Assembly: GCF_040436345.1 (NCBI RefSeq)
Contig: NC_133236.1
Coordinates: forward strand, 10,256,165 to 10,320,164
Direction of reading: 5' to 3'
DNA from: Pagrus major
Taxonomy: Eukaryota > Chordata > Actinopteri > Spariformes > Sparidae
DNA length: 64,000 nucleotides
Part shown: one piece after another, positions 17,671 through 61,101 of the stretch
How positions within the stretch are numbered: the stretch's first letter is position 1
Layout of the letters: every line of letters starts with the position of its first letter
Program-made: the position numbers and the translations under genes
The notes under the pieces: generated by a model
What the model saw: only the letters and a program-made list of their open reading frames with translations
Databases searched by the model: none
What the model was told of the DNA's origin: nothing

Positions 17671-17737
<67 letters not shown>

Positions 17738-20700
17738 CTCTTGTTGGATATGGTTTGGTTTTGACTTCTATCTGTATGTGTTCCTCTGAAGACTTGAACA
17801 TGAAGAAAGTCCAGAGAGTGGAGATGGAGCGAAGCCCACCTGTTAATAACTTCTCACAGCCACCAGAGGGCAGAGACTCCTGTAAGTTACCATCTAGTCT
17901 GACAGTGAGACACTTATTGCTTTTCTTGCATTCAGATTCTTTCCTGCAACAATATAGAAAAATCTAGCTGAAATAGATTACGATGTAAAGTCCAAAAAAA
18001 CACACACATATCATTTGACACAATCCGATTTAAATTTGATAGCACAGAATTATTTTGTCAACTTAACTGATGTGGTGGTATTATGAACCTACAAACAATC
18101 ATGTTTAGAATTATTGAGATGAAATTAACATATTATATATTTGTTATATTTTTGGGAGCACGCAGACAATGTATAAGGGAGTCAGATGATATCTTGCTCT
18201 AGGATGTTTAAAAAGCTGTCAGAATACTCTGTGGATCAAAGTGAAAACTATTCGTCATCGAACGTAAATATTTCAGGTCCAGATGGAGCCAGTGTTGGTG
18301 AGGCCTCGACGGCTCAACCGAGCGAGGACCAGAAACCCCCCATCCCCTCCACCAAGAAGGAGCCTCCCACGTACCCTCCAGGTGAAACACGCTGACCGAC
18401 CACTGCTGTTCATGCTTCAGTAAGAAAACCTGTTCACCTTCTGTCATCTATCCCCATTCACCAGGAAGTCAAGAGGAGCGTTGGCAGCTGCAGATTGTGG
18501 CCAAAGGCAGAGTCACCTGTCCAAAATGTAAAAGTGTGAGCAGGAAGACTGTGGAGGGGCTGAAGAAACACATGGAGAACTGCAGACTGGTGAGCACTAA
18601 GGCCTATACTGGGATTTATTCGTATTTTATAACTCATAAGTTTATAGTGTGCGCCGCCAGCTCAACCACCAAATCAAAAAACAGAGAAGCTCATGTCACA
18701 ACACATACAGAGGAATTGTGACGTCATTGTCAGCACAGGAAATCATCACTCCACTTTATCTATACATAATAAATAGATGTTTTCTGTTATATTAATATTC
18801 AAAATATCTTGTACTCAACCTTAAATCGTTTGTGTGCAGCAACCCTTTACATGTCAACACTGTGGGAAACAGCTGAAGTCCTCAACAGGGATGAAGTATC
18901 ATATCATGGCAGACCACAGTCACCTGGTAAGACTGATCAGCCCTAATCCCTGTTGTGCCTGCCTCCTTTTCAGCTATGCTTAAAGATCTTGTTGCTGTGT
19001 AATTTCTTCCAGTGCTTTTCCTGAAGTGTGTCTTCGCATTACTGTGTATCTTAAATAGAGCAGTCACTTCTCAAAAATGACACTGGTAATTAAAACACAC
19101 GCTCAGTGGAGTTTGAGTGTCAGCTCACGGTGTTGCTGCCTCTTTGTCTGTTTTTAGCCGTCATCAGAAGATGCCAAGGACCTGGATGATCGTGTCATCA
19201 AAGACAAACTGCGTAAAATCCTGAAGAGACTGGGCAAACTAAAATGCTCCAAAGAGGTAAATCACTTTCATTTAGCAAAGGAGATTTATTAGAATAAGAT
19301 GAGAGAAGACGATGTCAAATGTTTCTTTTTCGTCTTTTGATTTCAGGGCTGTACTGCTGCCTTCACCAGCATCATGGGCTACGTGTACCACATGAAGAAG
19401 TGTGGGAAGGAGGAGTCTGAGCTGGAGAAGATGTTGCTGAATTGCTCTCACTGTGGGAAAACCTACAAGTCCAAGGCTGGTCTGGAGTACCACCTGAAAT
19501 CAGAGCACGCTCCTGTGAGTCACGTGTTGTTTATCATGTCAGACCAAAGAAACAGTTTAGTTAGCAAATTCAGCACACAGATGAAGTCAACAGACTTTAC
19601 AGTAAAGGACGTGTTTGTATATTTAAATATCTGTTTCCCGTCCTGGTACCAAGACGCCCCAGAAGAGCGAGGAAGACGAGGCACTGAAGGCCCAGAGGGA
19701 GGCCAACCCAGAGAGGACGGCCAGCGGCAGAGTGCAGCGAGCATCGGCCCAGGTGGCAAACTTCCACCTGGCTGAGATCGCCAACAACGAGCTGCCCAAA
19801 GACTGGCCCAAGAGGAAGTTTCAGTCAGACCTGGTGCCAGATGACAAAAAGGCAAGAGGAGATTTAGTTTGTCCGAAATATATACAGTACATCAAGCTGG
19901 AGGATAGACGAGGGTATTTTTGTTTAGTGTATATTTATTCATACAATGTAAAACATTTCCTTAAACTAGCTGGAATGAAGGCAAAACAGACATAAAAGAG
20001 AGGAGTTCCTCTTTGTGGCAGTGTATAATGAAGATATAAACTGCCATTCACACATTCACTGACCTCCTGTTGTTCATGCTGTCCTTTCCAGTTGAAATAC
20101 GCCCGACCAGGCCTGCCTGCCTTCAGCCAGGAGGTGCTGAGGAAGTGGAAGAATGAGGTGAAGCTGCAGAGGAAGGTCCAGTGCCCCAACCAGGTAGGAA
20201 AACAACACTTCACTCATACTCAGCTGAGGTTTAAGAAAGAATCTGCACAGCTTTAGTTTAAAATCTAATTATTTTATTCCTGTCTGGTTATGTGGGGACA
20301 GGACTGTTTGTATAATAAGGTATAAAATATATATTAAGCCACAACCATGAGAAAGGAGATTTTCAGTACCAAGACTTGCCTCCCTTCATGCAAATGTCTC
20401 ACCAAACAAGAGTGTTTTTTGTTTTTTTTTCTCCTATACCACAATGTTCTTGCATGCAACAGGCATACGACTTTCTCCAGATCTGGCACGAAGCTGTGGA
20501 GTATGTGAGACTACCGTTAATGTAACATTATGTGTGTCGTCCTCAGGGATGTTGCTGCACCTACACCAGTGTGTCTGGACTAAAGGCTCATCTAGGCCTC
20601 TGCACAAGGGTACATCAGCTTCCCTCTTTATCCCTGAAATGAAATATCTATTGGATGTACAAATACGTGCTTATTGGGATTTGCAGTAGAGTAGAAGTTT

Positions 20701-21881
20701 TCATAGTAAAGAAAATATTGCTACGTTTTTATAACCAGGTGAACATGTTGAGACTTTGTGGGTTTCCCATATTAAGTCTAGTCCACATTCTCTGCAGCTG
20801 CAGTGAATATTTTTTAAGTACAGTGTATTCCAGTCTTGGTAATCATTTCATGGCTCTTTTGTGTCCTTCAATCTGATCTCAGGGCGACTTTGAGGCTGGA
20901 AAATACAGATGTCTGATCTGCAATAAAGAGTTCAACTCTGAAAGTGGAGTGAAATACCACATCAACTCTGTCCATTCACAGGTAACGAGTATCTACCCTT
21001 GTTTCCTGATTACGTTACAATGCTTCTCTGTCTGTTTGGGTCACTGTATGCAGAGGACATTTAATTAAACCAAGATATCTCTTTGGAGAGCTTCCGTCCT
21101 AACTTGTAATCACCCTCTCTTGTTTTCTTCTCTCCTCCTCTGTCGACAGGAATGGTTTGTCACAAACAAAAAGGCCTCCAAGAAGTTTGAGAAGTTCCTC
21201 AAAAATCAGTCCAAGGAGTTTGCCCAAAACATGGACAAGCAGATGGTGGATCAGTACCACCATAATCACCTCCAGCATCATCAGCAGCATCACCATCACC
21301 ACCACCACCAGCAGCAGCAGCAGCAGCAGCATCAGCTCCAGCACCAACTCCTGCAGCACCCTCTACAACCATTGCATCACCTCCAGCACCAAACCCAGTT
21401 CCTCCATCAAGAGCACCAAAACCTGCCTCCACAGGCGGACGCCCAGCTCCAGCAGCCGATGCTCCACTACACCCCTCTAGAGCCTCCGCCCGGACCGATG
21501 TGGGTGGATATGGACCGGAGAGACGCCGTGCCGGAGCCGGAGCAGGCGCCGATCGAGATGGAACTTGCTGAGAAACCAGAAGAGGACAATGACGGGATGG
21601 CGGAGGAGGAGAAGAGGAGAGAGAAGGGGGAGAGAGGAGGGGAGAGGGGGAAGGCTGAGGGGAAGCGGAAGGATTGCTTTGCTTTCGGTAGCAGCGGTGG
21701 TGGCAGCGGAGGCGGTAGCGGCAGCAGCAGTAGCAGTAGCAGCAGCAATACTGGCAGCTCGTCCAGCGAATCAGAGGTGGAGCAGCAGGACAGGCAGAGA
21801 CAGATCGACCAGTGGAACCTGAAGCGGCCCGACGTCATGGAGCCCCAACCTGAGGCTGGGAAACGACAGAGGAACACTTAA
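14835..21881 (+). CDS. znf512: Zinc finger protein 512, complete 15-exon coding region
   Basis: Coding exons: 14835-14934, 15041-15096, 15305-15363, 16850-17412, 17792-17881, 18277-18381, 18465-18589, 18840-18926, 19158-19256, 19347-19514, 19654-19851, 20092-20193, 20547-20609, 20883-20981, 21150-21881; 881 codons in unbroken phase. Six atypical zinc fingers lie near residues 340-364, 371-393, 425-450, 458-482, 580-603 and 614-636. Between them are [18 protein letters not shown] and [17 protein letters not shown], hallmarks of ZNF512. Vertebrate ZNF512 is a nuclear, probably chromatin-associated protein. The closest alternative, ZNF512B, is less similar and has extra N-terminal fingers missing here. 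The protein is longer than the human one (about 570 residues, from memory) because of a repeat-rich exon 4 (residues 73-259) and a low-complexity His/Gln, Glu and Gly/Ser tail. The intron after exon 11 has a GC donor. Confidence 0.88.
17020..17412 (+). repeat. Coding GRDR repeat array in znf512 exon 4
   Basis: The exon encodes about eight degenerate units of roughly 12-17 residues built on W-x-x-G-R-D-R-x-x-x-Q, for example [22 protein letters not shown] and [10 protein letters not shown]. The units are rich in Gly, Arg, Asp, Gln and Trp and look intrinsically disordered. The array is GC-rich compared with the flanking introns and produces long shadow frames on the other strand. Confidence 0.8.
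17435..17650. mobile_element. hAT-type MITE fragment
   Basis: GGGCTGCAACCAACCAATAT with TTAATCAATTAATCG-like text matches the abundant fish element whose ends read GGGCTGCAAC. It lies just inside the intron after exon 4 of znf512. Confidence 0.5.
17675..17736. repeat. (TG)31 microsatellite
   Basis: Uninterrupted TG dinucleotide tract in a znf512 intron, about 55 bp upstream of the exon 5 acceptor. Confidence 0.95.
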
Positions 21882-31079: not shown

Positions 31080-31976
31080 CTAAGCAGATATAATTTCCTT
31101 GAGTTTGGGACGAACATAACGCTCGAAAGCTGATGACGACCAGCGGCCCATTGCCTTGACTGTGGAAGCAGGAACGACGTTAGCTGCGGTGGTTGCTGCG
31201 CCGATGCGGAAGGAGTGGGAAGTGTACAGGTGGGGAGGCAGTCCACAATGCTGGCAGATCAGACGGAGGCGAGTGGTGAACCAGGACCGGGACATGGGCC
31301 TTCCTTTGTCAGTCAGGAACAAGGGCTCGTTTGGCTTAGCATGAGGTCGCCACTGAAGATATCGGACCATGGAGGACAGAGGACAGAAAGCAGTGTTAGT
31401 TTGAGTGATTACTATGGTTGAACCTTTACCTTCTTTGTCTGTTTTGGAGTGTTTAAGGTGAATAGAGTATGTGTTAGCTTTAACAGTAATATCTGATCTC
31501 GTGAGGTCGTGCAGAGGATTAAAGGTGTCTGTATTGGTAGTGAATTCACCACACCTAAGGAACCCATAAAAAGCTGTGCAGAAAACCGCTTCTAATAGAG
31601 AATCTGTGTAAGGCTCGAAACACCCTTGCCTTAAATGAGTCACCGTTTTGTGAATAAGAGACAAAGAAAAAGGAAGGTGCTTATCGTGGCTTCCTGGCTG
31701 CTCCTTATTCAGCCCCTTGAAGAGGAGGCATACAGAGGGATGTCCGAGAAGGTTACTAATTGAAGGATCTGCACATCTTAAATGAAACTGAATACCTGCC
31801 ACTGATGCTTTAATGGAAGAAGGTTGCATTTTGCGAGATTGAAAACAATGAACTATGAAAGCACAAATCACAGGTATGTTAACAGGCATCACAGGAACAG
31901 AAAAAGCTGCAGAGAAGGAGGTAAAATGAGACCAAGCAGATTCATACATCCTTAAGAGTGGATTTTGCCAGCCCAT
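31080..31976 (-). CDS. Tyrosine recombinase of a DIRS/Ngaro-like retroelement
   Basis: A 298-codon frame with the tyrosine recombinase catalytic set in order: Arg in FLRCGEF, Lys in HLKHSKTDKEGKG, the H-x-x-R box in TSHSFRIGAATT, Trp in MGRWSS and the nucleophile Tyr in FERYVRP. Such enzymes integrate DIRS-type retroelements by site-specific recombination. Directly upstream on the same strand is an RNase H tail, which fits a DIRS or Ngaro element rather than a Crypton. The N-terminus appears shifted: residues expected before MYESAW lie in another frame, so the element is probably inactive. It is a mobile-element gene, not a host gene. Confidence 0.8.
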   Translation of the reverse strand: MGWQNPLLRMYESAWSHFTSFSAAFSVPVMPVNIPVICAFIVHCFQSRKMQPSSIKASVAGIQFHLRCADPSISNLLGHPSVCLLFKGLNKEQPGSHDKHLPFSLSLIHKTVTHLRQGCFEPYTDSLLEAVFCTAFYGFLRCGEFTTNTDTFNPLHDLTRSDITVKANTYSIHLKHSKTDKEGKGSTIVITQTNTAFCPLSSMVRYLQWRPHAKPNEPLFLTDKGRPMSRSWFTTRLRLICQHCGLPPHLYTSHSFRIGAATTAANVVPASTVKAMGRWSSSAFERYVRPKLKEIISA

Positions 31977-39086: not shown

Positions 39087-40120
39087 TTACACTCCAAACT
39101 TTCTCATTAAGTTGTTGACAAACTGTTTCCTCTGATCCTGCTGAGATGGAACTTTTCCTAAATCATCCCCTGGACTCATCAGACAGACGGTGAATAAATA
39201 AAAGGTAACAAACAACACAATGACCACTGCTGCTGTCAGTCCCAGTCCACAGTAGAGGCCAATCCTTCCTGGACTTGCTGTGTTGGGTCTCTCAGGTTCG
39301 GGCCAATCCCTCGCTGCTGAAAAGAGACCAAACAACACAACAGCTGAAGTTGTGACATATTTCTCAGATACTGTGAGAATGAAGTGAAGGATTGTGGATT
39401 GTGGTCGTACTCAATACTTTTCTTCAGGTTCTTATTGATCCAAAAAAGCTGCTGAATTGAACCTGTTAATAAAGTTCTACTGACTTCTACTCAACCAACT
39501 TACCAGAGACGTTGAGCCAACATTCACCAAAGTCCACACCATAGTTTGTCCTCACATCACACAGGTACCGGCCTGAGTCCTCAGTCCTGAGTCTTGACAC
39601 ATGAAGTCTGAGCCGTCCGTCTCTGAGGAGGTCTTTGTCCAACTGGACTCGTCCTACAAACTGTTGATCCCGAGACTCTGGGACTTTAACACCTCCATAT
39701 AGACGAAACAGGACTGAGACTTTGTGATCAGTTATCATCTCACAGTGGATATAAAGGGAGTCAGGGGAAGTGTCAGTTGTGGTTGTGAACATCCATTCCA
39801 GTGTGATGTTGTGGTTCTCCTCTGCCTGATAGGAGGTCTGTGTCACATTCACTACAAATGTTCCTGTTGAGGAGACAGAGAGGGAAAGTGAGGAGCAGAC
39901 ACACTGACAACTTTAACATGGCAGCCTTTAAACTCCATCTACACATGTTTCTGTGGACAGTTTAGTGACGTCTCAGAGCTGCAGAGGCTCATCAACATCA
40001 ACTGTTTGCTCACATGTGGCTACTTTAACTGATTCATTGAATCACAGTGTAATAAAGTGAAGCTGGAAACTAACCACAGACACAGTTGAGGCTGATGAGC
40101 AGCAGGATCCTGCAGATCAT
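39087..40120 (-). CDS. Gene C: single V-type Ig domain type I membrane protein
   Basis: Exons 40120-40075 (signal peptide MICRILLLISLN), 39863-39504 (V domain) and 39316-39087 (stalk, membrane helix, tail) join in phase; 211 residues. The V exon contains NITLEW, LYIHCEM, RLRLHVSRLRTEDSGRYLC (the D-x-G-x-Y-x-C core) and N-glycosylation sites NVT, NIT and NVS. The last exon has RDWPEPERPNT, the helix LYCGLGLTAAVVIVLFVTFY and a tail of about 30 residues without tyrosine. I recognise this as a multicopy teleost V-set family resembling B7/butyrophilin-type V domains. Ligand and function are unknown. The usual B-strand cysteine is absent (see findings). A paralogue lies at 60147-61101 and a deleted inverted copy at 35301-36661. 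Confidence 0.8.
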
Positions 40121-44163: not shown

Positions 44164-45222
44164 TGTTTTGTTAATTTGAGAGCCGCCGCCCAGTATTGTT
44201 TTACAAATACTTGACATCATCAGCTAGAGATGGGATTTTGAGGTGAGCCGGATCTTGGTGAGCCGTTCCTTTCAAAGAGCCGTTCAAAAAACTGGCTCAT
44301 TTGACTGATTTTTATATTTATTAAATTTTAAGAAGCCAGCCTGGTGGTAACTCATTTTATCTTGGAAATAATCACTGGGAGGTTGATGGGGTGAGATTTG
44401 GAACAAAATAATACAAAATTAGATATCCCACCAATATCTGAGTTTGAATTATTCTGAAATATTGATTATAACCTCATTTGACATGTGTGGACTAGATTTT
44501 AAAGTCTGATCTGGATTCATTGTAAATATTCCACAAGGTTGCACCATATCACTCTGCTTTGACAGTGACATCACTATTGCCTGGGTCAGTTGGCTCTCTT
44601 CTCTTCTCACCTCTGCCACTTTCACTGTTGGGTGTTGTGTTTTCAAGTGTCTATGCAAATTATTTGTTGAACCGGACTTAAAAGAAATATGTTTCTGACA
44701 AATATTGCATTTTGCCTTACTGTCTTCCACAAGAGAAAAGTGCATCCAAATGCTGCTCCGTTTCCTTTGGCTCATTTTGTCCAAACAACGACGTCAGACA
44801 CACGACAGACTGACTGTCCTCCTCCTAATTGAGACTGCTGCAGCTGCTCTGCTCTCCGAGGCAGGGGCAGTCACGTGTTTCTGTTTTTACGCAAAGGCAG
44901 CGTGCACAACTCAGGTGGCGTCATGCTACATTTGTATAACCAATAAGCACCGTGCAGCTGAGCTGAGCTCCTCCACATGTAACTTTTTTTCCCTCCTGTT
45001 CTCTGTCCCACTCAGGGGAGGAGCGAAGGAGGAGCTTTTGTTTGCATCTGCGTGAAACACACAGTGATATATAAAAAAAAAAAGAACGGTTCCCAGCTGT
45101 CACTCAGTTCCTATCGTTCAAAAGAATCAGTGTCGTTCGTGAACGTCACAACACTATGAATGTTTTGTTAATTTGAGAGCCGCCGCCCAGTATTGTTTTA
45201 CAAATACCTGACATCATCAGCC
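44164..45222. mobile_element. hAT element copy between 60-bp direct repeats
   Basis: The block TTTTGTTAATTTGAGAGCCG ... GACATCATCAGC occurs at 44164-44226 and again at 45158-45222. Between them lies about 930 bp starting TAGAGATGGGATTTTGAGGT and ending, reverse complemented, TAGTGTTGTGACGTTCACGA. The interior encodes the start of a hAT transposase on the minus strand; the catalytic part is missing. Confidence 0.65.
44449..44784 (-). pseudogene. BED-type zinc finger N-terminus of a hAT transposase
   Basis: A 111-codon frame. After MSQRKRSSIWMHFS it carries C-x2-C in KCNICQK and H-x4-H in LHRHLKTQH, the BED finger used by hAT transposases for DNA binding. The DDE catalytic region and dimerisation domain are absent, so it is a truncated transposase. 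Confidence 0.75.
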
Positions 45223-45903: not shown

Positions 45904-46385
45904 CATTTACATTCTTTATGTTTTTTTTAATTACTAAACTGACACCAGAGGTAGTTTCAAAATCAAAGTCAGGCGACTAAATTAATTTGTCAGTTGTCAT
46001 GGCTCTTGTAGTATACAGATATCATTATCATTGTATCATTACCATTTCGGAGAGCGCCCTCTTGTGTTCTAAACTATGACATCACCCCAGTTGTTTTGGC
46101 TCTTTGGAGCGATAAGAAGGCAGCAACACGTTTGTACTTCAGGTATTCTTTGTGGAACAGATGAAAGAAAGTCAACACCAAATAAAAGTTCTGACCTCAT
46201 TTTATATTAAATTTAGTTTAGAGAGAATGAAGCACTCACGTACAGGATGTACAGGCCTACACAGTATAATCATACAACAACAGAACACACACAAATGAAC
46301 ACAATGAAATGTTAATGACTATGTGATATGATTAGATGTAAAGGTCTTATGTTTTGTCGATGTGTTATAATGACTTATGTTGATT
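45904..46385. repeat. Low-copy duplication, left copy flanking the Fc-receptor-like gene
   Basis: Near-identical over long stretches to about 56178-56706 in the same orientation (for example CAGTTGTTTTGGCTCTTTGG and AGCACTCA.GTACAGGATGT). Both ends of the receptor gene therefore carry the same block. Confidence 0.75.
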
Positions 46386-46425
46386 AAACTAACCTTGGCT
46401 TGATTTTGATATCTCTGTAGGTGAT
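46383..46425 (+). pseudogene. Relic of an ITAM-cassette exon upstream of the receptor gene
   Basis: TTAAACTAACCTTGGCTTGA ... CTCTGTAGGTGAT matches the acceptor region and first bases of exon c of the cassettes at 51415, 51935 and 53885, then diverges. It suggests that another copy of the receptor tail once lay here. Confidence 0.55.
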
Positions 46426-46736: not shown

Positions 46737-49700
46737 ATGGAGCACACTTTGCTCGGTGTGCTCGGGTTGTTCTGTGAGTACATCTCTGACTTTCTAATGC
46801 TGTGACTTTCAGTGGCAGGTCATTTTGTACACATGATCTCTGTTGCTGATTTGGCTTTGGCACAATGCATGTACAGTATATAGTCTAAGATATTGTAATG
46901 AATATTTTTTGTGATTTCATTAATGGATCATTTTACTTTATATACTGTATTCCATCTGAAGAGTTTCTTTTACTTGTTTCTGCTCTCTGTAGCTCTGCAG
47001 TAGAATATCATCACAGAAATGTGTGATGCTGTTGATTGATAAGAAGTTGTTGTCACTGATGAAACTCCAGCCGGATTTTAAATGCTTATGTTTATTGTCT
47101 AATGAAGTTTTAATCTTTATTTCAGTGCTGAATACACTCCTCTACGGACATGCTGAAGGTGAGCAACTGTCTCTGCTTCCGCTTTTTATATATTTATAAA
47201 AAGTAGTCATTGATCTCCTACTTATCATCTACTGTATCACTCTTGATCACTTCCTGTTTTTCTTTTTTTCACATGGAAAGAAGTTGAGGTATAGCAAAGA
47301 TCCCCTCGGGAGAAATCTAGTTTGGTTCAAAAAAATAAAAAGTTTTAACTATTTTGTAAAAACGTACCAAACTGAACAAGTACACGATATAAAATCATCT
47401 CAGAATATAAAACAAAAAATCACTTATTCACAGGTCATACATAAACACTTACTGATACATTGTGCTGGCTGCCACACAGAGATGCAGGAAGTCAGTCATA
47501 GTTGGGCGTACTGAGGACTCAGTCTATGTAATGACTTCATAGTAAATGGTGTGTGACATTCATGCCTTTTTGTATTAGTTTGAATGAAACTTGAATGAAA
47601 CACCAACATATTATAGGTCAAAGTGGCCACATCAACTACAGTCAACAACAGCAAGGAGATGAAGAGGGAGGTAAATCCCCCAGTCTGCCTTATAAAATCG
47701 AGTTGTTGAGTTTGGAGACACTTTTTTCGCTGTTTCTGACAAATTCTTGAATATTTAGGCTTTCTTGTAAATTCAGCATTTAATACGGCCTCTTTTTAAG
47801 GGGCGCTGGAAACCCTAAGCACTCCTAGTTTCTGCATCCATGCTGCCACAGTGTTGTTTTTGGTAATACCTCTAAGAGCTGCCTTCATCAGAAATGGTTA
47901 AATACTTCACATACAGATGAGTGACAAGTTATTGATCAACATAAATTGTCTTGAAATTCTATTACTCTATATGTACATATGTATGTATGAGTAATAAAGT
48001 CACTCTTAACTGTATCCAGCAGCTCCATCAGGTGACTGTCACTACCACCAAGTCAACAGTACAACATGTTGATGTGATCATCATGTTTGTTGCTGTGCTG
48101 AAATGAACATAAACTCCATCTCGTTTCTACATTCTGAAACTTTAAATCCCATCCGACTCATGACATATATTTTATTTGATCTTTTTTTATTTCTTGAAAG
48201 TTTCTCCCTCAGAGAGCATGCAATATGAAGCTCAGTGCACATGTTTTAGCTTTGTAACAAAGTAACTGAATAGCAGCCAGTAATCAGATTACTGCATCTT
48301 TTGAAATATAATCACTCACACAGAACGAATGAACAGAGTAACTTCAAGGGTGGACGGATAATGCAGTTTAACACTCTTATCAACAAAAAGGGTTCATTTG
48401 ACATTTGTTATGGAAACAAAATTAAAGAAAATATATATTTTGTATTTATATTTGTTGATTGATAAGAAAAAGGACATGATGTGGATTTAACTTTTTGGCA
48501 TTTTTGTTTCCTCTCTGTGAATTCTTGAACATGAACAGGTCCAAACAAGGCTCTTGTGACTCTGCAGCCAAACTGGTCTGAAATATACTTTGGAGAGAGG
48601 ATCACTCTCAGATGTGAGATCAAAGATGGAGGAGACACTGAGTGGGAGTATGAATGGAGAACAACCAGCTCAGAAAAACCTTCAAATCAGAATGAACACA
48701 GTATTAGATTTGTGACTGAATCCCACAGTGGAGACTACAGGTGTAAGGGCAGAAAGAAACATACGCAGCATTCTTCAACAGGTTGGAGTGATCCCATCAA
48801 ACTGACAGTATCAGACGGTAAGTCACATCACATTTCTTTCAAAGTGAAGATTAAACAAGGCTGTTTTTGTTCATATATATTTTTAAAGTAAATCTTCAGT
48901 ATGTATGATTTTGCAGAATGTATCTGATCCACTATCAATACATGTTTTCATTTGAAAAAATAATTTTCCAACAGGACCCCAGCCTGTCCTCACTGTGTCT
49001 CCATCATGGCTGAGTGCTGGAGCCTCAGTAACTCTGAACTGTGGTGTTAAAGATCCATCTGCAGGATGGAGGTTCTACTGGTATAAGATTGTTCCTGATC
49101 AATCAGACAACTTTCAATACTACAACCTTGAGCTGCTACCTGGCAGCAGCAGTGGGACTGAACAGGATTCCTACATTGTTCATGGACAGACACACACAGC
49201 AGGATATATGTGCAGAGCTGAAAGAGGAGATCCAGTGTATTACTCTTATTACAGTGAACCTAAGTTTGTCTGGTCTGCAGGTCAGTGTGTTTCTATCTCT
49301 TAAGAAACAGATGTTATATCAGCTCTGTTCATCTTGTTTCTAAATGATGATAAAAATACAGTATCTTGAAAAAAAAGAACATTAATTTACTGTGGTCTTA
49401 TGATCTTGTCTCTCTTGCTAAAGCTCAAGCTAAACTTCATGCTTTCCGCATTACTGGGTGGAATTGACTTGTTTCCTTCTGTCCTCACTCTTTAACATAA
49501 AACACAAAAAGAGAGATATGATATCTTGGCTAAAACTCTGCTCTCATTTGCAAAAAGTACATTTAGTCTGAATACTTAAGCTCTTCTTCTGTTTACAGCA
49601 GCTGTAGTCACTTGGTTGTCTATCATTTAAAATGTACTCAAAATGGTAGCAAGAGGTCAAAGTAGAAATCAGAATTTTACCAAAATACTTTGTTGCAATA

Positions 49701-52700
49701 AAAACAAAACAAAGCTAAGGACTATTTGAATTGAGGCATTTTATATCTGAAGATCTCTGTTCTCTGTTCGACCTCTTATCACATGTTGTTTTTCAGATAT
49801 TCACTCATCAGCGTCTCTCACAGTGAGTCCTGACAGAGCTCAACACTTCACCTCTGACTCTGTCTCACTGAGCTGTGAGGGAAACTCTGCTGAGTGGATA
49901 GTGAGGAGGTCATCAACTGAGGACAGATACTGGTCACACCGCACCAACTGGGGGACAATGAATGGATCAACATGCAACATAAACATTTACAGCCTCAGTG
50001 ATGCAGTGTACTGGTGTGAGTTTGGATCAGGAGAGTTCAGCAGCGCAGTCAACATCACTGTACAGAGTATGATTTCATTACATTTTGTTTTTCTTTGACT
50101 TATTATCTCAAACATCCCGTCGTGTGTTGAGGAGTACAGTACACTGACATGTTAAGAGTTCTGCCCAACACTCTGCTTCATGAGCTCTCCACTAATTAAT
50201 TGTTTTCACTTAATAAACATAGTTAAGTATTTAATTACACTTTGATTTTACCCATGTATAGATATAGAATATAGATTTGTGGCTGATCTGATAGGTCCAT
50301 GATCACCATTTAAAGTTCAGTGTGAAGGATTTAGTGATATTTAGCTGTGAGGTTTCAGATTCAACCAACTTAAAGGGTTCTTGAACAGTAAGACACACAG
50401 GGTGTATGAAGATGAAACGTCAGATTTTATGATCACTGTTACATCAATGAGAAAAGTCAAAGAAAATAACCCAGTATGTCTTTTCTCATCATTCTACATC
50501 CACTCATTCTCAAGTTCCTCGACCAGCTGATCTCTGACTGAAACCTGGTATTCTTTGACTGTTTAACAGATGGAGATATGATCCTGCTGAGCCCTGCCCG
50601 TCCTGTGGCTGAAGGAGATTCTGTTAGTCTGAGCTGCAGATTAAGAAGTCAAACATTTGGCTCCATTGTGTTTTTCTATCACAATGAAAAACTCATTCAA
50701 AGTGACAGCAGATGGGAGTTAAATATCTCTGCAGTGTCAAAGTCAGATGAAGGATTCTACAAGTGTCAACACTGGAGACAAGAGTCAGCACAGAGCTGGA
50801 TGTCAGTTCAGGGTGAGTAGGATTAAAATATTCGCAGCATTTTCTTTTTTTGACTGGGAAAGAAATTCAGATGAATATTGTTTTCCTATTTATTCCAGCT
50901 GTGTCCAGGCCTGAAAGCTCTTCATTTCCTGTACTGTTGATTTTTGGGCTGGTTTGTGGAGTTGTTCTTGTTATTCCTCTGCTCGTTTTGTTTTACTACA
51001 GAGCATCCAAGGGTGAGACCTTCTTCTTCTATTATTACATGTTTTATAATTATTCAAATACACACACATACTCTGATCTCATGAGATAGAATAGCAGTAT
51101 AACAACCATCTAACAACAAGTGTCCCTTTCACAGATTCATGCTTCGTCAGGTAGGTGCAACACTGTCTCATCTCATTTTGAACGTAACATCAACACATTT
51201 TTATGTTCCTATTTAAATCTACTGTATCTGATATGTGTTGTAGACCAGTCCAGTCTGAGAGCGCCAACGCAGATCGTGTGGACTACGAGAATGATCATTA
51301 CTCCATTCTTCACCATGGTAAGCAGTTAAAATAATCTTTATTTTTTACAGATTATATTTTAAGTAGTCTAAAAAAATCTTAGTTTGTTTAATAAGTATTG
51401 TAAACTAACCTTGGCTTGATATTTATTTCTCTGTAGGTGATGTTTGTGTCTATGAAACAATCAGAGGCCCTCAAGAAGCTGAACATGGTACAGTTTATAC
51501 CTTTTTATTCACCATGGAGCTGTTAGAAATACTAGAATAAGACACATTTAATTTAACTGTAAATGACTTATTGACAATCATTGAGCATATTTATTTGTCT
51601 GAAATGACATATTTTAGACTGAGTTACACATCTAACAGCAAATGTCTTTCACAGATTCATGCTTCGTCAGGTAGGTGCAACACTCTCTCATCTCATTTTG
51701 AACGTGACATCAACACATTTTTATGTTCCTATTTAAATCTACTGTATCTGATATGTGTTGTAGACCAGTCCAGTCTGAGAGCACCAACGCAGATCGTGTG
51801 GACTACGAGAATGATCATTACTCCATTCTTCACCATGGTAAGCAGTTAAAATAATCTTTATTTTTTACAGATTATATTTTAAGTAATCTAAAAAAATCTT
51901 AGTTTGTTTAATAAGTATTGTAAACTAACCTTGGCTTGATATTTATTTCTCTGTAGGTGATGTTTGTGTCTATGAAACAATCAGAGGCCCTCAAGAAGCT
52001 GAACATGGTACAGTTTATACCTTTTTATTCACCATGGAGCTGTTAGAAATACTAGAATAAGACAAATTTAATTTAACTGTAAATGACTTATTGACAATCA
52101 TTGAGCATATTTATTTGTCTGAAATGACATATTTTAGACTGAGTTACACATCTAACAGCAAATGTCTTTCACAGATTCATGCTTCGTCAGGTAGGTGCAA
52201 CACTCTCTCATCTCATTTTGAACGTAACATCAACACATTTTTATGTTCCTATTTAAATCTACTGTACCTGATATGTGTTGTAGACCAGTCCAGTCTGAGA
52301 GCGCCAACGCAGATCGTGTGGACTACGAGAATGATCATTACTCCGCTCTTCTCCACGGTAAGCAGTTAAACTACTATTATACAGTGGGGTCCAAAAGTCT
52401 GAGACCATTGAAAATCTCTAATATTGTCACGTGAACCTGGAAATAATCAGAAAGTGCTCAGAAAGTGTGAGTGACTCAAGGTTTCTAAAGGGGCAGTGCA
52501 TGTAACAATATAAACTCTAAAACACTTGGCACAAACTAGATCAGTTGTATCCAAAGACAGATCCAAAGTGACCACACTGTGGGAGAAAGATGTCGTACAT
52601 ACCCTGTATAAAGATTAGGCCCGATAATGTATGGATGAGGGCACAGTGACGTCTGATCTATGAGTTTATATCTCTCATGGTCTTTGCAAACTTAGCAGTT

Positions 52701-55097
52701 GGAAGCTGCTGTAGAAATGTCTACAAAACGGATCTCTGACAAACCAAGGCTGTTGTTTATGTGAACTCATAGGATGGCCTTCGATCTATCTGCTGTAGCA
52801 GACTGACTGTCTTCTATGCATTTTCTTTCTATTCCTCACTAAGTCAGAGGTGAGAAGCTCTGCAGTAACTTCCCACTTATTTATTGTTAAACAGATAACC
52901 ATGTATGGGAGGGCTGCTTCCTGAGCTTAGAGGATATAACCTGAAACTAGAGAAGGTTTGGGAGGATTAACTTGACAATGCACTGTGCAGACAGTTGTGC
53001 TGTTATTTTGTTCCTCCATGATCAGGTTTGTAAAAACTACAACGTAAGTCATCGGTGTCTCTGAGTTTTCTTCATCTCTCCTGATATTCCACAACACGCA
53101 CCATCAGAAGATCAATAAATCAAGCTTCGTTCCCTGAAAGATAGAAAAGCAAATTCATCACAGATACAAAATTTGAAAAATACAAACACAAGAATCCAAT
53201 CAGGTGAAGTCTGTCAAAGGAAAGCTGTCTTGTAGTTGTCTCGAGGACGATTAGCCGTTCCTAAACCACTTCTTAGTTGATGAAGCAGGTGTCAGGCGGG
53301 TTAAGAAATACCAGAATTCTTCAACGAATCAACTTTAACTCAAAGTGTTAAGCTGATATTATCATTTGCAATAAAAAATATTATTACATTCAAAATAAAT
53401 ACAAAACAGAAATGTTGCGTGGTCTCAGTCTTTTTGAGCCTATAAACACATTTTAAATGATCAAAACAATCTGAGGTCTCACATGATAGATTTGTTGTTT
53501 ACAGTTAAAGTTGTTGAAGCCATTTTGCAGATTTACCTTATTGATTCACAATTATGTTGAGACATCATGCATTTTCTGATGCTGATCATGTGTTGGAATG
53601 TACTGTGTTGAGGTTTCTGTTTTGTTGGTATTATTATGATAATCATGATGAGCGGATGTCGGATAGTGTGACGTGATATGCCCTTTGATTTAGGGCAGGT
53701 GCACAGGTGTTCACAGGAGCAGAAGGGCAAACAATTTTCAACCGCACAACACGAAAGCCTTTGTCTGAAGCCGAATTTATTTATGATCATATCAGTCTGT
53801 TATCGTCATTCAATAAAGCCCAAATACGACACTGAGAGCCAAGTGCGCGTTGATTTACTGACCGCTCCTAACAAAAGTGATTAAACTAACCTCGGCTTGA
53901 TTTTCATTTCTCTGTAGGTGATGTTTGTCTCTATGAAACAATCAGAGGCCGTCAAGAAGCTGAACATGGTACAGTTTATACCTTTTTATTCACCATGGAG
54001 CTGTTAGAAATACTAGAAGAAGACAATTAACTGTAAATGATTTATAATAATAATAATCAATAATATCACATATTCTTTTATTGATCGTAAAAACACTAAG
54101 AGTGAGTTCTTTATTGGGAGAGAGAGAGAGAAAGTGAGAGAAAGCTCGAAGAGCCCTACATGCAATTAAGAGAACATTTTATAATTTCCAAATTCCAGTC
54201 AAAATCTGTCTTAAAATATTTGATAGTGTCATCCAGCCCATTGCGCTGTACGGTAGTGAAGTCTGGGGGCCACTCAGTCATCAGAGCTATACCCGCTGGG
54301 ACAAACATCCAACAGAGTCTTTACATGCAGAATTCTGCAGACACATTTTACATGTACACAGAAACACACCAACAAACGCATGTAGAGCAGAATTAGGCAG
54401 ATACCCACTGATAATTAACATTCAAAAGAGAACGCTCAACTTTTTTAACCACCTGAAATCAGGCCCCCGAGACACCTTCCACTCCAAAGCCCTCCAAACT
54501 CAAGAGCTGAGCCCAGAAAAGAGTCCCCTATGTCAGCTGGTACTGAGGCTAACTGCCCCCTCTCAGACACAGTCTGACCAGCCTCACAACAACACTGCTC
54601 TCCAAACACCAATCAGAGTAAAGCAAATTATAACACAATGTAAAGAAACCTATCTGGAACATTGGAAAGAAGAAACTAAAAGCCAAAGTAGATCAGAATG
54701 TTATCTAGCCCTAAAAAGAGATTATGAATCAGCAGAATATCTCTCTACTTTCAGAGATAGAAAGCAGAGACCGATGCTCACCAAGTACAGGCTCAGTGAC
54801 CACAAACTGACAATCCAAACAGGAAGACACAAACAATCATGGAAATCAATAGAAAACAGAATATGTGGTCACTGCTCGACAGGTGAGGTTGAGACAGAGA
54901 TGCACTTTCTCCTACAATGTAAAACATTCAATGAAATGAGGAACATTTATTTTAACAAGTTCAACTCTGTAATCTCAGAGTTCAAAGAGCTGAATGACAT
55001 CTCAAAATTAAAAATACTCCTGGGAGAAGGAGATAGGGCATATCTTGCTGCCCAATATGTGTCAACATGCCACAACCTGAGGGACAGTGAGTGACCG

Positions 55098-55129
<32 letters not shown>

Positions 55130-55430
55130 TGTATATATAATTAATGTAAATCAATCTTGGTGTTGTGTTTGTGTTGTTATTTGTTGTGTTCTGTCCAGGT
55201 GTTTGGACAGATGCTTTGGCAAAATTGTTGTTAAACTTTCATGCCAATAAAGCCCCATTGAATTGAATTGAATTGAATTGTGAGAGGGGGGGAGAGAGGG
55301 GAGGATAGGGAGATAGGGGGAGAGAAAGAGAGAGAGGGAGGGAGGGGGGGGGGGGGAGTAAGGACAGAGTGTCCTGACATCCACCTCAATCTCTTTTTTG
55401 TTTACTTTGCTTTTTCTTTCAGATCAATAA
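46737..55430 (+). CDS. Fc-receptor-like Ig superfamily receptor with three ITAM cassettes
   Basis: Exons: 46737-46773, 47126-47158 (together signal peptide MEHTLLGVLGLFLLNTLLYG), 47617-47670 (linker, less certain), Ig domains 48539-48817, 48975-49280, 49797-50066 and 50570-50812, membrane exon 50899-51012, three tail cassettes (51135-51150, 51244-51317, 51437-51487; 51655-51670, 51764-51837, 51957-52007; 52175-52190, 52284-52357, 53918-53968) and 55423-55430 with TAA; 588 residues in continuous phase. Domains D1-D4 carry GERITLRC...GDYRC, ASVTLNC...AGYMC, SVSLSC...AVYWC and SVSLSC...GFYKC, as in teleost Fc-receptor-like proteins. The membrane helix (about 416-440) has no charged residue, so adaptor pairing through the helix is not suggested. 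Each cassette adds 47 residues with YSIL or YSAL, seven residues, then YETI: an ITAM pattern. Confidence 0.8.
51111..51630 (+). repeat. Tail cassette unit 1 (520 bp)
   Basis: Contains mini-exons a (16 nt), b (74 nt) and c (51 nt), 141 nt in total and divisible by three. It encodes tyrosines at about residues 465, 470 and 481. Its leftmost bases differ slightly from the other units. Confidence 0.9.
51631..52150 (+). repeat. Tail cassette unit 2 (520 bp)
   Basis: An exact 520-bp spacing and near-identical sequence to unit 1, introns included, indicate a recent duplication. Tyrosines at about residues 512, 517 and 528. Confidence 0.92.
52151..54015 (+). repeat. Tail cassette unit 3, interrupted by an insertion
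   Basis: Exons a and b are at 52175-52190 and 52284-52357. The b-c intron is enlarged by about 1.5 kb, and exon c resumes at 53918-53968. Exon b differs (YSALLHG for YSILHHG) but keeps the YxxL and the spacing to YETI. Tyrosines at about residues 559, 564 and 575. Confidence 0.85.
52379..53444. mobile_element. Tc1-like non-autonomous element in cassette 3
   Basis: The left end CAGTGGGGTCCAAAAGTCTGA and the right end, reverse complemented, GGCTCAAAAAGACTGAGACC are inverted repeats flanked by TA, as for Tc1/mariner elements. No transposase frame. The inner part near 52740-52990 is shared, inverted, with 63800-63945. Confidence 0.6.
54085..55283 (+). pseudogene. 5'-truncated LINE 3' end inside the last receptor intron
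   Basis: The frame contains IALYGSEVWGP (C-terminal reverse transcriptase region) and, at 54774-55094, a cysteine-rich end CGHCSTGEVETEMHFLLQC of the kind found at LINE C-termini. It ends with CCAATAAAGCCCCATTGAAT and an ATTGA-type tandem tail (55255-55280). The first part and the later frame are offset, so it is broken. It includes (CA)14 at 55099-55126. Confidence 0.75.
55281..55365. repeat. Purine-rich GA/G tract
   Basis: GAGAGGGGGGGAGAGAGGGG followed by further G and GA runs. It lies about 60 bp upstream of the final coding exon of the receptor. Confidence 0.85.
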
Positions 55431-55957: not shown

Positions 55958-56177
55958 CTTGTTCCAGCAATAAGCTGTCAACAGTGTTCCTCATAGATTC
56001 AGAGGGAACAAAGGGAATATAACTGTAGTTACTTCAATTTGAAAAGTCTCTTCATATTTGTGTCACTACTCACTCTTCATAATGTGTATCAGTGTCAAGC
56101 CCGTTCAGACATATGTTGTCCTGCATGTCAATCACCTTGTCTCAACATGATGCTTCATACTGTGGAATTGTTTTATA

Positions 56178-56706
56178 TCTCATTTACATTTCTTTATGTT
56201 TTTTACTAAACTGGCACCAGATGTAGTTTCAAAATCAAAGTCAGGCGACTAAATGAAACCATTTTTGGGGGTTTGAACATTGTTTGGAACATTTAAAATA
56301 ATATTAGCACAAAACTCAACAAAGTAAATGAAAAAGGTCTGGTCATTTTAGACATTTTAATGTAGAAATGTAACATATTATTACCTTGACATGTATTATA
56401 CATATTACTATTACATCACCCCAGTTGTTTTGGCTCTTTGGAGCGATAAGAAAGCAGCAACATGTTTGTACTTCAGGTGTTCTTTGTGGAACAGATGAAA
56501 GAAAGACACCAAATAAAAGTTCTGACCTCATTTTATATCAAATTCAATTTGAGAGTATGAAGCACTCACATACAGGATGTACAGGCCTACACAGTATAAT
56601 CACACAACAACAGAACACACAAATGAACACAATGAAATGTTAGTGAGTATATGATATGATTAGATGTAGTGGTCTTATGTTTCGTGGATGTGTTATAATG
56701 ACTTAT
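56178..56706. repeat. Low-copy duplication, right copy flanking the receptor gene
   Basis: Partner of 45904-46385 in direct orientation, at the 3' side of the gene. Confidence 0.75.
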
Positions 56707-56789
56707 TCTTGCTGTCATTTTTTATTTTTAGTACGGAAGTCCTGAGGGGCGAGGGGGGATTTTTGTTCTGGTGCTCTTCTTTCTAAGTT

Positions 56790-58310
56790 CTAAAAATAAG
56801 TGACAAAGTTTGATGAGACGTCCTGTCAAAAATAATGGACAACATGTAGGTGAAGAACAACGTTTCCTCCATCAACTCACTACAATACACTGCCTCTAAT
56901 GTTCTGTTTATAATGTGTACATACTGTAAATAAATCTATATTTACATGAGAGACGTTGTTTTGATTGTTCTGTAAGTCTTTTCATATCAGACACCCAGAA
57001 GATGTCAAGACCTCAAAGAGTTTATCAGCAACAAAGTTCATAATAATAAACTTTATTAACACTCAGAAACAGTTTCAAACTGACTTCCAGGCCACATTAA
57101 TGAATAGAATATTAAAAGAAAGACAAGAAATTAATGTATGTGTTTTTATTGTATCCATTTGTCACAAGTCACATAATGAAAACTACAAATGGTAACAACA
57201 TATCATATAAATGAAGTGAATCTGATATGAAATGTGTTCTACAGCATTTAAAGAGTTGATGAAAAAAGTTAAATATGAAAATCAAATCACTTGGCAATTA
57301 ATTAAATCACTTACAACAGACGGAAATATGAAGACATAACTGTTTGAGACTTTAACTTGTGGAAAACAAAATCCACTTAATACAATGACTTTAAAGTGAA
57401 GAGTGCCCTCTGCTGACCTTTATCTTTAACACCAGCGTTAACAGATCACAGCTTTTCTTTCAAGCACACATACAGAGACAGAATGACAATCAGTAACAGA
57501 CAGTAAATAACAAACACAAATCAAACAGCAGCACTTCATTTCAGTTTAAACTTCACATTACAACAAGAAAAGGTTAAAGCTCCACGAGAGAAAGTTAAAT
57601 CTGATTATAAAATCTGGACAGACGATCAAAACTGAAAGATTCAAAGAAAACTTGATAAAAAACAAAAACAACACAAACAGAAAAAGTGAACATAATAAAA
57701 TACATATAACAAAATACATAAAAGAAACAGTATATAAAGCGGTATCATGTATCATATTGTATATTTTCATACATGAAGAAAAATATCTTTATATCTAAAA
57801 AATCAACTGTTCTTACAAATACCACCTTTAAATGATGCCATGTTAATAAAAACAACTGCTCTCATATGAATGGATTTATTTACAATATGTTATTAAGATA
57901 ACATAGATAAAGACATCACTTCCTCTGTGTCCTGTAACATCATACAACAAGCAGATCAGTTCAGCTGAAGCTTCATGACATCCTGCAGGAGTCCAGTACA
58001 GGAGAGATGAGATATGAATCATGATGTCATATTTTATTATGGATAAATACATCATGTAGAGAAATGAAAAGTATAAATGTGACATATATACAGCTGTAAC
58101 TATACACTAGTGGTTGGAACTCATCACATGGAGCTTGGGGAAAAAAATCACAGAGTTGTTACACATGGTGTACGAGGTCGACATGTTTCAGTAAAGTAAA
58201 CACAGAGCAGATTTCAGATCTGTCTAATAAGTGACAGAGTTTGATGAGACGTCCTGTCAAAATAATGAACAACATAAAGGTAAAGAACAACGTTTCCTCC
58301 ATCAACTCCA
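56790..58310 (-). repeat. Third copy of the V-type gene 3' flank
   Basis: GATGAGACGTCCTGTCAAAA occurs at about 56812 and again at 58245. 56950-57070 matches 37860-37990 inverted, and 57390-57560 matches 37490-37620 inverted. It is downstream sequence of gene D, here separated from it by the LINE at 58310-60022. No intact frame. Confidence 0.6.
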
Positions 58311-58313
58311 TTA

Positions 58314-60022
58314 TTGTTTATCTCCTCTGACTCTTATATCCCATCCTCCATCGTTAAATCCTGCCTCCCTACAATCTCCCCATTAATCGCCATCATTATT
58401 AACTCCTCCCTCTCCTCTGGCTCCGTCCCCGAATCCCTCAAACTGGCCGCTGTCACCCCCATCCTCAAAAAACCCGGCCTGGATCCTGACATCATCTCAA
58501 ACTTCCGTCCTATCTCAAACCTCCCTTTCCTGTCAAAGATTCTGGAACGTGTTGTCGCCTCACAAATCCAAACCGAGCACCGAAACCGCACCGAAACCGC
58601 TCTCCTTAAAATCACCAACGACCTCCTCCTCTCTGCGGCCACCTCAGTATACTCATCCTCCTTGACCTCACTGCAGCCTTCGACACCATCAACCACTCCA
58701 TCCTCCTGTCCCGCCTACAAACATTTCTCAACATCACCGGCTCCGCTCTTTCCTGGCTCAAATCCTACCTCTCAGACAGACAACAGTTCATCCATGTCAA
58801 CAACTGCTCCTCCTCCACTGTCCCCCTGCTTCAAGGCGTCCCCCAGGGCTCAGTGCTTGGTCCTCTCCTCTTCATCATTTATCTACTCCCCCTTGGCTCC
58901 ATCATCCGTCGCCATGGTCTCCGTTTTCACTGCTATGCCGACGACATCCAACTCTACATCTCCACAAAATCCATCACCCCAGCCACCCCCTCTACCCTCA
59001 CAAACTGCCTGTCCGAACTACAATCATGGCTGCAAAAAAACTTTCTCAAACTAAACTGTGACAAATCTGAAATCATACTCATCGGCCCAAAACCCCTCAC
59101 CACATCGACCCAGAACTTCTCCCTCAGCTTTGACAACATCACCCTGTTTCCCTCTCCCTCCATCCGTAACCTTGGCATTATCCTGGACAGTACTCTTTCA
59201 TTCGAACAGCACATCAGCCGCCTCACCCAAACTGCCTTCTTCCATCTAAAAAATATTGCCCGCCTCCGCCCACTACTCTCCTTCTCTGCAGCTGAGACTC
59301 TCATCCACGCATTTATCACTTCAAGACTTGACTACTGCAACAGCATCCTCTATGGTTCATCCTCCAAAGCCCTCAATAAACTTCAATACATCCAAAACTC
59401 TGCTGCCCGCCTCCTCATCCACACCCGCTCCCGTGAACATATCACCCCCGTACTCCAAAACCTTCACTGGCTCCCTGTCCCACACCGAATCAACTTCAAG
59501 CTCCTCCTACTCACCCATAAAGCCCTCCACAACCAGGCCCCTCCCTACCTCACGGACATGCTCCACCACCACACTCCTTCTCGAAACCTCAGATCCTCCG
59601 ACGCTAACCTTCTCTCACCCCCCCTCAGGACCAAGCACCGTACCTGGGGGGACAGAGCCTTCTCCATTGTTGCCCCCTCCCTCTGGAATTCCCTCCCCAA
59701 ACACATCCGCGACTGCCCAGACTCATCCACCTTCAAGTCATTACTCAAAACCCACCTCTTCAAATCCGCTTTCCATTTGCACCCGTAGCTGTTTGTTGTC
59801 CTCAACCTGTTCTCCCTAAAAACCTACACAGATCCATATCCTTCATACATTGTTCTTTTTTCTACATATTTCTCCTTTTATCGCACCATGCACTTGATTT
59901 TATACACCATGCACTTGATTTTATGTATTCTTATATGTATTCTATTCTTGTAAAGTGTCTTTGAGAGTTTTTAAAAGCGCTGTACAAATAAAATGTATTA
60001 TTATTGTTATTATTATTATTAT
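58314..60022 (+). pseudogene. L2-like LINE, 5'-truncated and frameshifted
   Basis: The first frame holds VTPILKKPGLDP and ISNFRPISNLPFLSKILERV. The second (58853-59788) has the catalytic YADD in HCYADDIQLYIS and ends with WGDRAFSIVAPSLWNSLP and FKSLLKTHLF, typical of fish L2 elements. The two frames are offset by at least one indel. The 3' end is AAAGCGCTGTACAAATAAA followed by ATT repeats (59995-60022). It lies between the V-type gene D and its duplicated 3' flank, so it inserted after the duplication. Confidence 0.88.
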
Positions 60023-60146: not shown

Positions 60147-61101
60147 TTATGTTAAATAAATATATAAAAAAAAGAACACAGCTACCACTGTTGCTGTCAG
60201 TCCCAGTGCACAGTAGAGGGCGATCATTCCCCAACTGACCCTGTTGGGTCTCTCAGGTGTGTCTGTGTTGGGTCTCTCAGGTTTGGGCCTTGCTGCTATA
60301 AAGAGACCAAACAACACAACAGCTGAAGTCGTGACATATTTCTCAGATACTGTGAGAATGAAGTGAAGGATTGTGGATTGTGGTCATCCTCAATACTTTT
60401 CTTCAGGTTCTTATTGATCCAAAAAAGCTGCTGAATTGAACCTGTTAATAAAGTTCTACTGACTTCTACTCAACCAACTTACCAGAGACGTTGAGCTGAC
60501 ATTCACCAAAGTCTGCACCATAGTTTGTCCTCACATCACACAGGTACCGGCCTGAGTCCTCAGTCCTGAGTCTGGACACATGAAGTCTGAGTCGTCCATC
60601 TCTGAGGACATCTTTGTCCAACTGGACTCGTCCTACAAACTGTTGATCCCGAGACTCTGGGACTTCAACACCTTCATTTAGACGAAACAGGACTGAGACT
60701 TTGTGATCAGTTATCATCTCACAGTGGATAAAAAGGGAGTTGGGGGAAGTGTCAGTTGTGGTTGTGAACATCCATTCCAGTGTGATGTTGTGGTTCTCCT
60801 CTGCCTGATAGGAGGTCTGTGTCACATTCACTACAAATGTTCCTGTTGAGGAGACAGAGAGGGAAAGTGAGGAGCAGACACACTGACAACTTTAACATGG
60901 CAGCCTTTAAACTCCATCTACACGTTTCTGTGGACAGTTTAGTGACGTCTCAGAGCTGCAGAGGCTCATCAACATCAACTGTTTGCTCACATGTGGGCTA
61001 CTTTAACTGATTCATTGAATCACAGTGTAATAAAGTGAAGCTGGAAACTAACCACAGACACAGTTGAGGCTGATGAGCAGCAGGATCCTGCAGATCATCA
61101 T
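60147..61101 (-). CDS. Gene D: V-type Ig membrane protein, shortened tail
   Basis: Exons 61101-61053 (signal peptide; two adjacent in-frame ATGs at 61101 and 61098), 60842-60483 (V domain, 360 nt as in gene C) and 60295-60147; 184-185 residues. The V exon differs from gene C by few residues and keeps NITLEW, LFIHCEM and SGRYLC. The last exon duplicates ERPNTDTPERPN in the stalk, has a helix (LTATVVAVFFFLYIYL) and stops at once. The tail sequence of gene C is still readable downstream but out of use. The acceptor and 5' UTR upstream of the ATG are deleted relative to gene C, so expression would need another leader. It may be a young pseudogene. Confidence 0.65.

Follow-up and report, generated by a model that had tools for sequence, protein, structure and literature searches.

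An Fc receptor-like gene of Pagrus major predicted to carry three tandem ITAM cassettes on a single chain

Single-chain receptors such as Fc-gamma-RIIA, CEACAM3, and FCRL1 combine ligand-binding immunoglobulin (Ig) domains and an immunoreceptor tyrosine-based activation motif (ITAM) on the same chain, with Fc-gamma-RIIA having a longer gap between its ITAM halves. In ITAM genes the motif is commonly divided between two exons. The CD3-zeta family is recognized by a very short ectodomain and an acidic transmembrane (TM) residue for T cell receptor (TCR) assembly; the TM segment of CD3-zeta contains Asp, and its tail is basic-rich. The gene described here lies in a 64,000-nucleotide stretch of the Pagrus major genome (contig NC_133236.1, positions 10,256,165 to 10,320,164; the window) and is predicted to encode an Fc receptor-like chain with three ITAMs in tandem. 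Sections of a 2025 review give the ITAM consensus as YxxL/I-x6-8-YxxL/I, assign three ITAMs to zeta and one to the other ITAM-containing subunits, and say that no clear agreement exists on what ITAM multiplicity does (PMC12058738); the abstract of another paper describes amplification of TCR signals by ITAM multiplicity (PMC4428620). Among teleosts, excerpts of two papers present the IpLITR proteins of channel catfish as FcR/FCRL-related Ig receptors with stimulatory and inhibitory forms, of which the stimulatory IpLITR 2.6b signals via ITAM adaptors that associate with its TM segment; it was examined as a chimera carrying the ITAM tail of an adaptor (PMC4810170, PMC7404264). In the same excerpts, adaptor-dependent stimulatory LITRs have a charged TM residue and a tail without signalling motifs (PMC4810170).

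A three-ITAM tail on an Fc-receptor-like chain is a well-supported prediction from the exon structure of this locus. One plus-strand gene spans 46737-55430 and comprises 17 exons with the frame open throughout, including two for the signal peptide, four for Ig domains, one for the TM segment, nine small cassette exons, and a last coding exon of 8 nt (Table 1). Intron borders are AG/GT and of phase 1, except for the introns between exons a and b (phase 2), and neither a stop nor a broken splice site was found in the gene model 46737-55430. The working model is a 570-residue protein; a doubtful 54-nt exon (47617-47670), although in frame, was dropped from it because the homologue P0041 joins exon 2 directly to Ig1. 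Each cassette consists of exons a (16 nt), b (74 nt), and c (51 nt), together 141 nt or 47 codons, and all nine cassette exons have AG/GT borders, with phases 1-2, 2-1, and 1-1. These borders and phases confirm the initial annotation, made from the letters alone, in which each set of mini-exons adds 47 residues without a change of frame, and the proposed YSIL or YSAL in exon b, followed after seven residues by YETI in exon c, is present in all three cassettes. The motif reads YSILHHGDVCVYETI in two cassettes and YSALLHGDVCLYETI in one, within the wider pattern D-S-C-F-V-R-P...DYENDHYS[I/A]L-x7-YETI...EAEH, and thus all three carry the ITAM consensus with x7 spacing, downstream of the TM exon. 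A chance origin of the motif was rejected by shuffling: 200,000 shuffles of one cassette gave an ITAM pattern (x6-8) at a rate of 0.00086, and three ITAM patterns arose in none of 50,000 shuffles of the whole tail.

The tandem Ig domains, which are closest to FCRL/FcR, place the gene with the FCRL family. Their top match among solved structures is Fc receptor-like protein 5 (FCRL5; E 5.5e-22), followed by PIR-B, FCRL4, Fc-gamma-RI, and KIR3DL1, and many deposited relatives are labelled Fc receptor-like protein 5 or CD22-like. Together with the uncharged TM segment and the open frames, the Ig match upholds, at the level of sequence, the earlier picture of a single-chain Fc-receptor-like protein with three potential ITAMs. 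The TM helix, FPVLLIFGLVCGVVLVIPLLVLFYY, is without charged or amide residues. Adaptor pairing was rejected on account of this uncharged TM segment, and the gene further departs from adaptor-dependent stimulatory LITRs in that its own tail holds ITAMs; its four Ig domains and uncharged TM segment likewise set it outside the CD3-zeta family. Like CD3-zeta (CD247), it would present three tandem ITAMs on one chain; unlike CD3-zeta, that chain has its own four-Ig ectodomain, an uncharged TM segment, and an acidic cytoplasmic tail of 147 residues, with a net charge of -19 and three tyrosines in each cassette, nine in all. Fc-gamma-RIIA, CEACAM3, and FCRL1 have one ITAM or ITAM-like motifs, compared to the three tandem cassettes here, and IpLITR 2.6b borrows adaptor ITAMs, whereas the present gene encodes its own. 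Sister genes in percomorph fishes with one or two cassettes share the cassette, the exon layout, and the Ig domains, and differ in having fewer cassettes. An inhibitory (ITIM) or switch (ITSM) reading of the 147-residue tail was rejected, as neither [I/V/L/S]xYxx[L/I/V] nor TxYxx[V/I], the forms taken for these patterns, found a match in it. Hidden ITIM exons were likewise rejected: tblastn of the tails of nine relatives against the window supports only the end of Ig4, the TM exon, and the cassette exons, the few matches elsewhere in the window having E values of 0.06-0.8. A Pfam scan of the tail alone gave no family above cut-off, and a PDB sequence search with a single cassette returned only a designed binder (E 0.74), an uninformative match.

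Motif, spacing, uncharged TM segment, and lack of ITIMs together argue for an adaptor-independent activating receptor. It is likely that the gene encodes a receptor of the percomorph Fc receptor-like group ("FCRL5-like/CD22-like") that is activating, signals by itself without an adaptor, and has zeta-like ITAM multiplicity. The four Ig domains would sense a ligand, perhaps immunoglobulin, and receptor clustering would allow Src-family kinases to phosphorylate both tyrosines of each YxxL-x7-YxxI. As the motif suggests, a doubly phosphorylated cassette could then serve as a docking site for Syk or ZAP-70 through their tandem SH2 domains. With three cassettes, one chain could dock kinases at as many as three sites, and gain would be set by cassette number and not by borrowed FcR-gamma or CD3-zeta. 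By this arrangement, fish would appear to make activating Fc-like receptors that need no adaptor. Searches of the open-licence PMC literature listed no three-ITAM Fc-receptor-like protein, an absence that is weak evidence.

Judged by deposited proteins, the cassette is a family module conserved across percomorph fishes. This conservation, like the sister loci with differing cassette numbers, strengthens the single-chain ITAM reading. The set comprised 126 sequences, namely 125 database proteins (one of them this gene) and the present model, and the cassette profile matches 93 of these. The second tyrosine is conserved in 91/91 aligned cassettes and is followed at +3 by I, V, or L in 90/90; the first is conserved in 96/105, with L at +3 in 72/106 and P in 23/106. 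Among two-tyrosine cassettes outside this gene the gap between the halves is seven residues in 73/76, six in two, and ten in one. The conserved gap bears on whether the tyrosines might serve endocytosis (YxxPhi sorting) or Grb2 recruitment (through YEND) and not ITAM signalling. YSIL and YETI fit YxxPhi and YEND fits YxN, and the cassettes assembled from the Pagrus major genome keep the YEND tyrosine (Y20) in 28/32 and N22 in 32/32. A constant seven-residue gap is, however, unnecessary for endocytosis, and across the family Y20 is kept in just 19/101 aligned cassettes; sorting or Grb2 recruitment is very unlikely to be what the motifs are for. Of the 16 proteins in the tail search, none carries three cassettes from one gene. 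P0126 of Centropristis striata shows three closely spaced cassette matches, of which the first lacks the YxxL half, as well as a distant fourth. The tail of P0043 (Epinephelus fuscoguttatus) holds many tandem 11-residue repeats, LYES[I/V]xGSEAx, which is a different route to multiplying tyrosine motifs.

A search of the Pagrus major genome with exon b found 34 copies (E up to 6.4e-5) in 20 loci, of which ten have two cassettes, eight have one, and two have three. Three cassettes occur only in this gene, which lies on C22, and, most likely, at C10:3.689 Mb; the ten two-cassette loci lie at C10 7.09-7.39 Mb, where the census of 7.264-7.400 Mb combined the exon search with fetched pieces. The locus C10:3.689 Mb is read as one three-cassette gene because neither Ig, TM, nor terminal exons turned up between its cassettes 2 and 3; the only terminal exon found there follows the third cassette. 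Nineteen of the 20 loci were assembled, leaving out a single-cassette locus near C10:3.074 Mb, and the cassette exons show open frames and AG/GT borders at all but two of them, 7376128 and 13061659. The latter has no detectable exon a and no AG before exon c. The former (C10, minus strand; L030), a two-cassette locus, has its first exon c interrupted by a stop, and the tail of the deposited model P0005 omits exactly that exon; the tail is open in 9/10 two-cassette loci. A counterpart of the terminal exon, GTCAATAA, follows the last cassette in 16/18 sister loci examined. TM matches of sister loci lack an AG at the acceptor position taken from this gene in 10/23. Those with 'aa' there have a CAG three bases on that keeps the frame, and others also have a nearby downstream CAG (7261491 was left out of this check); since an alternative CAG is so close, these acceptors are not counted as broken.

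Several observations weigh against an activating three-ITAM receptor, among them the stop within a cassette of one sister locus. The sole deposited model found for this gene, P0011 ("B-cell receptor CD22-like [Pagrus major]"), has no TM segment and misreads cassettes 2 and 3 out of frame because it skips the second 16-nt exon; it is reproduced letter for letter from the exons of the window minus exon 2, the TM exon, and the second exon a. The TM segment is absent from 4/10 Pagrus major models examined (P0008, P0011, P0102, which stops before it, and P0118), and if these are RNA-based, soluble forms would be common. The evidence on selection is mixed. Across the 32 assembled cassettes of the genome the Y, L, and Y positions are kept in 32/32 and the last position is I (26) or V (6), so that six end in YETV, outside YxxL/I. 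There is little purifying signal among them (pN 0.075 vs. pS 0.083; in the ITAM core 0.070 vs. 0.124), exon b is more variable than its neighbour, the a-b intron (0.085 vs. 0.043), and purifying selection on this genome's cassettes, looked for by pN/pS, was not shown. Nor, as judged by eye, do the cassettes exactly match the acidic residues in the longer "Reth" version of the motif.

Some of these points would fit a decaying or little-used copy in which the TM or 16-nt exons are skipped, giving a soluble or truncated receptor whose three cassettes are never produced together. The exon skipping in P0011, the models without a TM segment, and pN near pS are all consistent with decay, as are the position on C22, apart from the C10 cluster, and the mobile-element pieces in the window. 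However, the gene has neither a stop nor a broken splice site, and its three 16-nt exons are intact and mutually identical, two being used even in P0011. Slips in other models also speak against decay. P0118, which like P0071 shares letters of the slipped reading of P0011, shows the same frame slip in exon b at another locus, and P0005 shows four cassettes that come from two neighbouring loci, 7389001 and 7376128, whose tails it merges. The misreading in P0118 and the fusion in P0005 point to annotation trouble in this receptor family, and a decaying copy is considered unlikely. Because P0011 reads cassettes 2 and 3 out of frame, the triple tail is invisible among the proteins found; 16-nt exons can hide ITAM tails from deposited annotation.

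The three units do not share one history. Units 1 and 2 differ at 5/492 positions (exon a to c-a intron), scattered over exon and introns, with a single codon (A/T) differing in the exons. The 28 bases directly 5' of exon a differ at 14 positions between the two, so the duplicated block starts near exon a. Units 1 and 3 differ at 6/141 exon bases; four amino acids change as a result, and one change is silent. The b-c introns of cassettes 1, 2, and 3 measure 119, 119, and 1,560 nt, which makes unit 3 (52175-53968) about 1.8 kb long. The initial annotation had proposed three 520-bp units and a recent expansion: the unit starts are indeed 520 bp apart, but unit 3 is much longer, and recent expansion holds for units 1 and 2 only. 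Unit 3 is old, because its b-c intron matches the last-cassette intron in all ten two-cassette loci. This intron also holds a transposon-like piece with short inverted ends (52395/53420). It further matches the introns of both cassettes 2 and 3 at C10:3.689 Mb (b-c lengths there 119, 573, and 1037). From these matches it appears that this gene copied its first cassette and C10:3.689 Mb its last, in two independent steps; the duplication of different cassettes in the two genes indicates that copy number grew repeatedly. A DNA tree built from 33 units separates the second cassettes of the ten two-cassette loci, as one group (support 0.87), from their first cassettes, so the two-cassette tail seems older than the ten gene copies. 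In the same tree the a-b parts of this gene's three units nevertheless cluster (support 0.77), with those of C10:3.689 Mb as their neighbours (0.95), a pattern suggestive of homogenisation within the gene. The subfamily ancestor probably had a two-cassette tail, and the inferred order of duplications would be an ancestral pair in this gene followed by a recent copying of the first cassette; in general, cassette number would grow by tandem duplication of the a-b-c block, which has phase 1 at both ends. The near-identity of units 1 and 2 would also be expected if one were an expansion introduced by assembly and the true gene had two cassettes like most multi-cassette sisters. This is highly improbable, since the five differences are spread over exon and introns, the sister genes share the exon layout, and C10:3.689 Mb most likely has three cassettes too, through duplication of a different one.

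Tail type also varies among relatives. An ITIM-like motif lies downstream of 20/61 cassettes with Y..[LI] compared to 26/30 others (Fisher 1.3e-6, uncorrected for kinship), a comparison that used the 91 of 110 aligned cassettes in which the second tyrosine aligned (19 dropped) and a loose ITIM pattern that also catches the second cassette of Notolabrus proteins. Of the 30 cassettes without Y..[LI], 13 have the form Y..P, P stands at +3 in 19, and the form Y..V, which not everyone would call broken, occurs in four. ITIM-tailed relatives thus tend to break the first ITAM half, as far as the aligned tails indicate. An ectodomain tree was examined for 67 classified proteins (42 ITAM, 25 ITIM), the other 55 of 122 having tails that are short, absent, or with mixed or no signals; three proteins with an intact ITAM and at least two ITIM-like motifs were scored as ITIM. 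Tail type needs 19 changes on this tree, at least 11 of them forced by well-supported branches, a count that mis-joined models such as P0005 could inflate. Shuffled labels need a mean of 20.3, about 150 of 500 shuffles being equally low, and ectodomain kinship therefore hardly predicts tail type. By these comparisons, related receptors alternate between ITAM and ITIM tails, a paired-receptor pattern consistent with repeated tail exchange.

A broader proposal, offered tentatively and with somewhat more doubt than belief, is that cassette number fixed in the germline sets signal strength in this fish receptor family, with one to three ITAMs gained by repeated block duplication, that related ectodomains swap ITAM and ITIM tails, and that cassette number may vary between individuals. 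One genome that carries the module once, twice, or three times on ligand-binding chains provides a natural experiment on ITAM multiplicity. If the proposal is true, receptors with one to three ITAMs would be a natural counterpart of the CD3-zeta chimeric antigen receptor.

Table 1. Exons and a marker intron of the three-cassette gene, in window positions
Feature	Position	Strand	Remarks
Exon 1, signal peptide	46737..46773	+	ATG, GT donor, phase 1; deposited P0011 starts identically
Exon 2, signal peptide end	47126..47158	+	AG/GT, in frame; LLNTLLYGHAEG join matched in homologue P0041; skipped in P0011
Ig domain 1 exon	48539..48817	+	Pfam Ig_3/Ig_2
Ig domain 2 exon	48975..49280	+	Open frame, Pfam
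Ig domain 3 exon	49797..50066	+	Open frame, Pfam
Ig domain 4 exon	50570..50812	+	Open frame, Pfam
TM exon	50899..51012	+	25-residue helix, no charged/amide residues; skipped in P0011
Cassette 1 exon a (16 nt)	51135..51150	+	
Cassette 1 exon b (74 nt), YEND + YSIL	51244..51317	+	
Cassette 1 exon c (51 nt), YETI	51437..51487	+	
Cassette 2 exon a	51655..51670	+	Skipped in P0011
Cassette 2 exon b, YSIL	51764..51837	+	
Cassette 2 exon c, YETI	51957..52007	+	
Cassette 3 exon a	52175..52190	+	
Cassette 3 exon b, YSAL	52284..52357	+	
Cassette 3 b-c intron, enlarged; ancestral-last-cassette marker	52358..53917	+	
Cassette 3 exon c, YETI	53918..53968	+	
Terminal coding exon ATCAATAA (D-Q-stop)	55423..55430	+	

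The gene is flanked by direct repeats at 46073-46378 and 56407-56706 (about 92% identical, 10.33 kb apart), a possible substrate for unequal exchange. Beside the first of these, 46381-46425 resembles the end of a b-c intron together with the start of exon c. Two near-alike V-set Ig open frames on the minus strand (39487-39852 and 60466-60831) lie in duplicated blocks that flank the gene. Probable pieces of mobile elements, which match models of the integrase family, reverse transcriptase, and BED zinc fingers, lie at 31080-31976 (minus strand), 58853-59788 (plus strand), and 44449-44784 (minus strand). Open frames on the plus strand at 16833-21881, one of them with a C2H2 finger that weakly matches a ZNF512 model, are perhaps a neighbouring zinc-finger gene. 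A marked GC skew (-0.291) occurs in a single 4-kb bin, 56001-60000.

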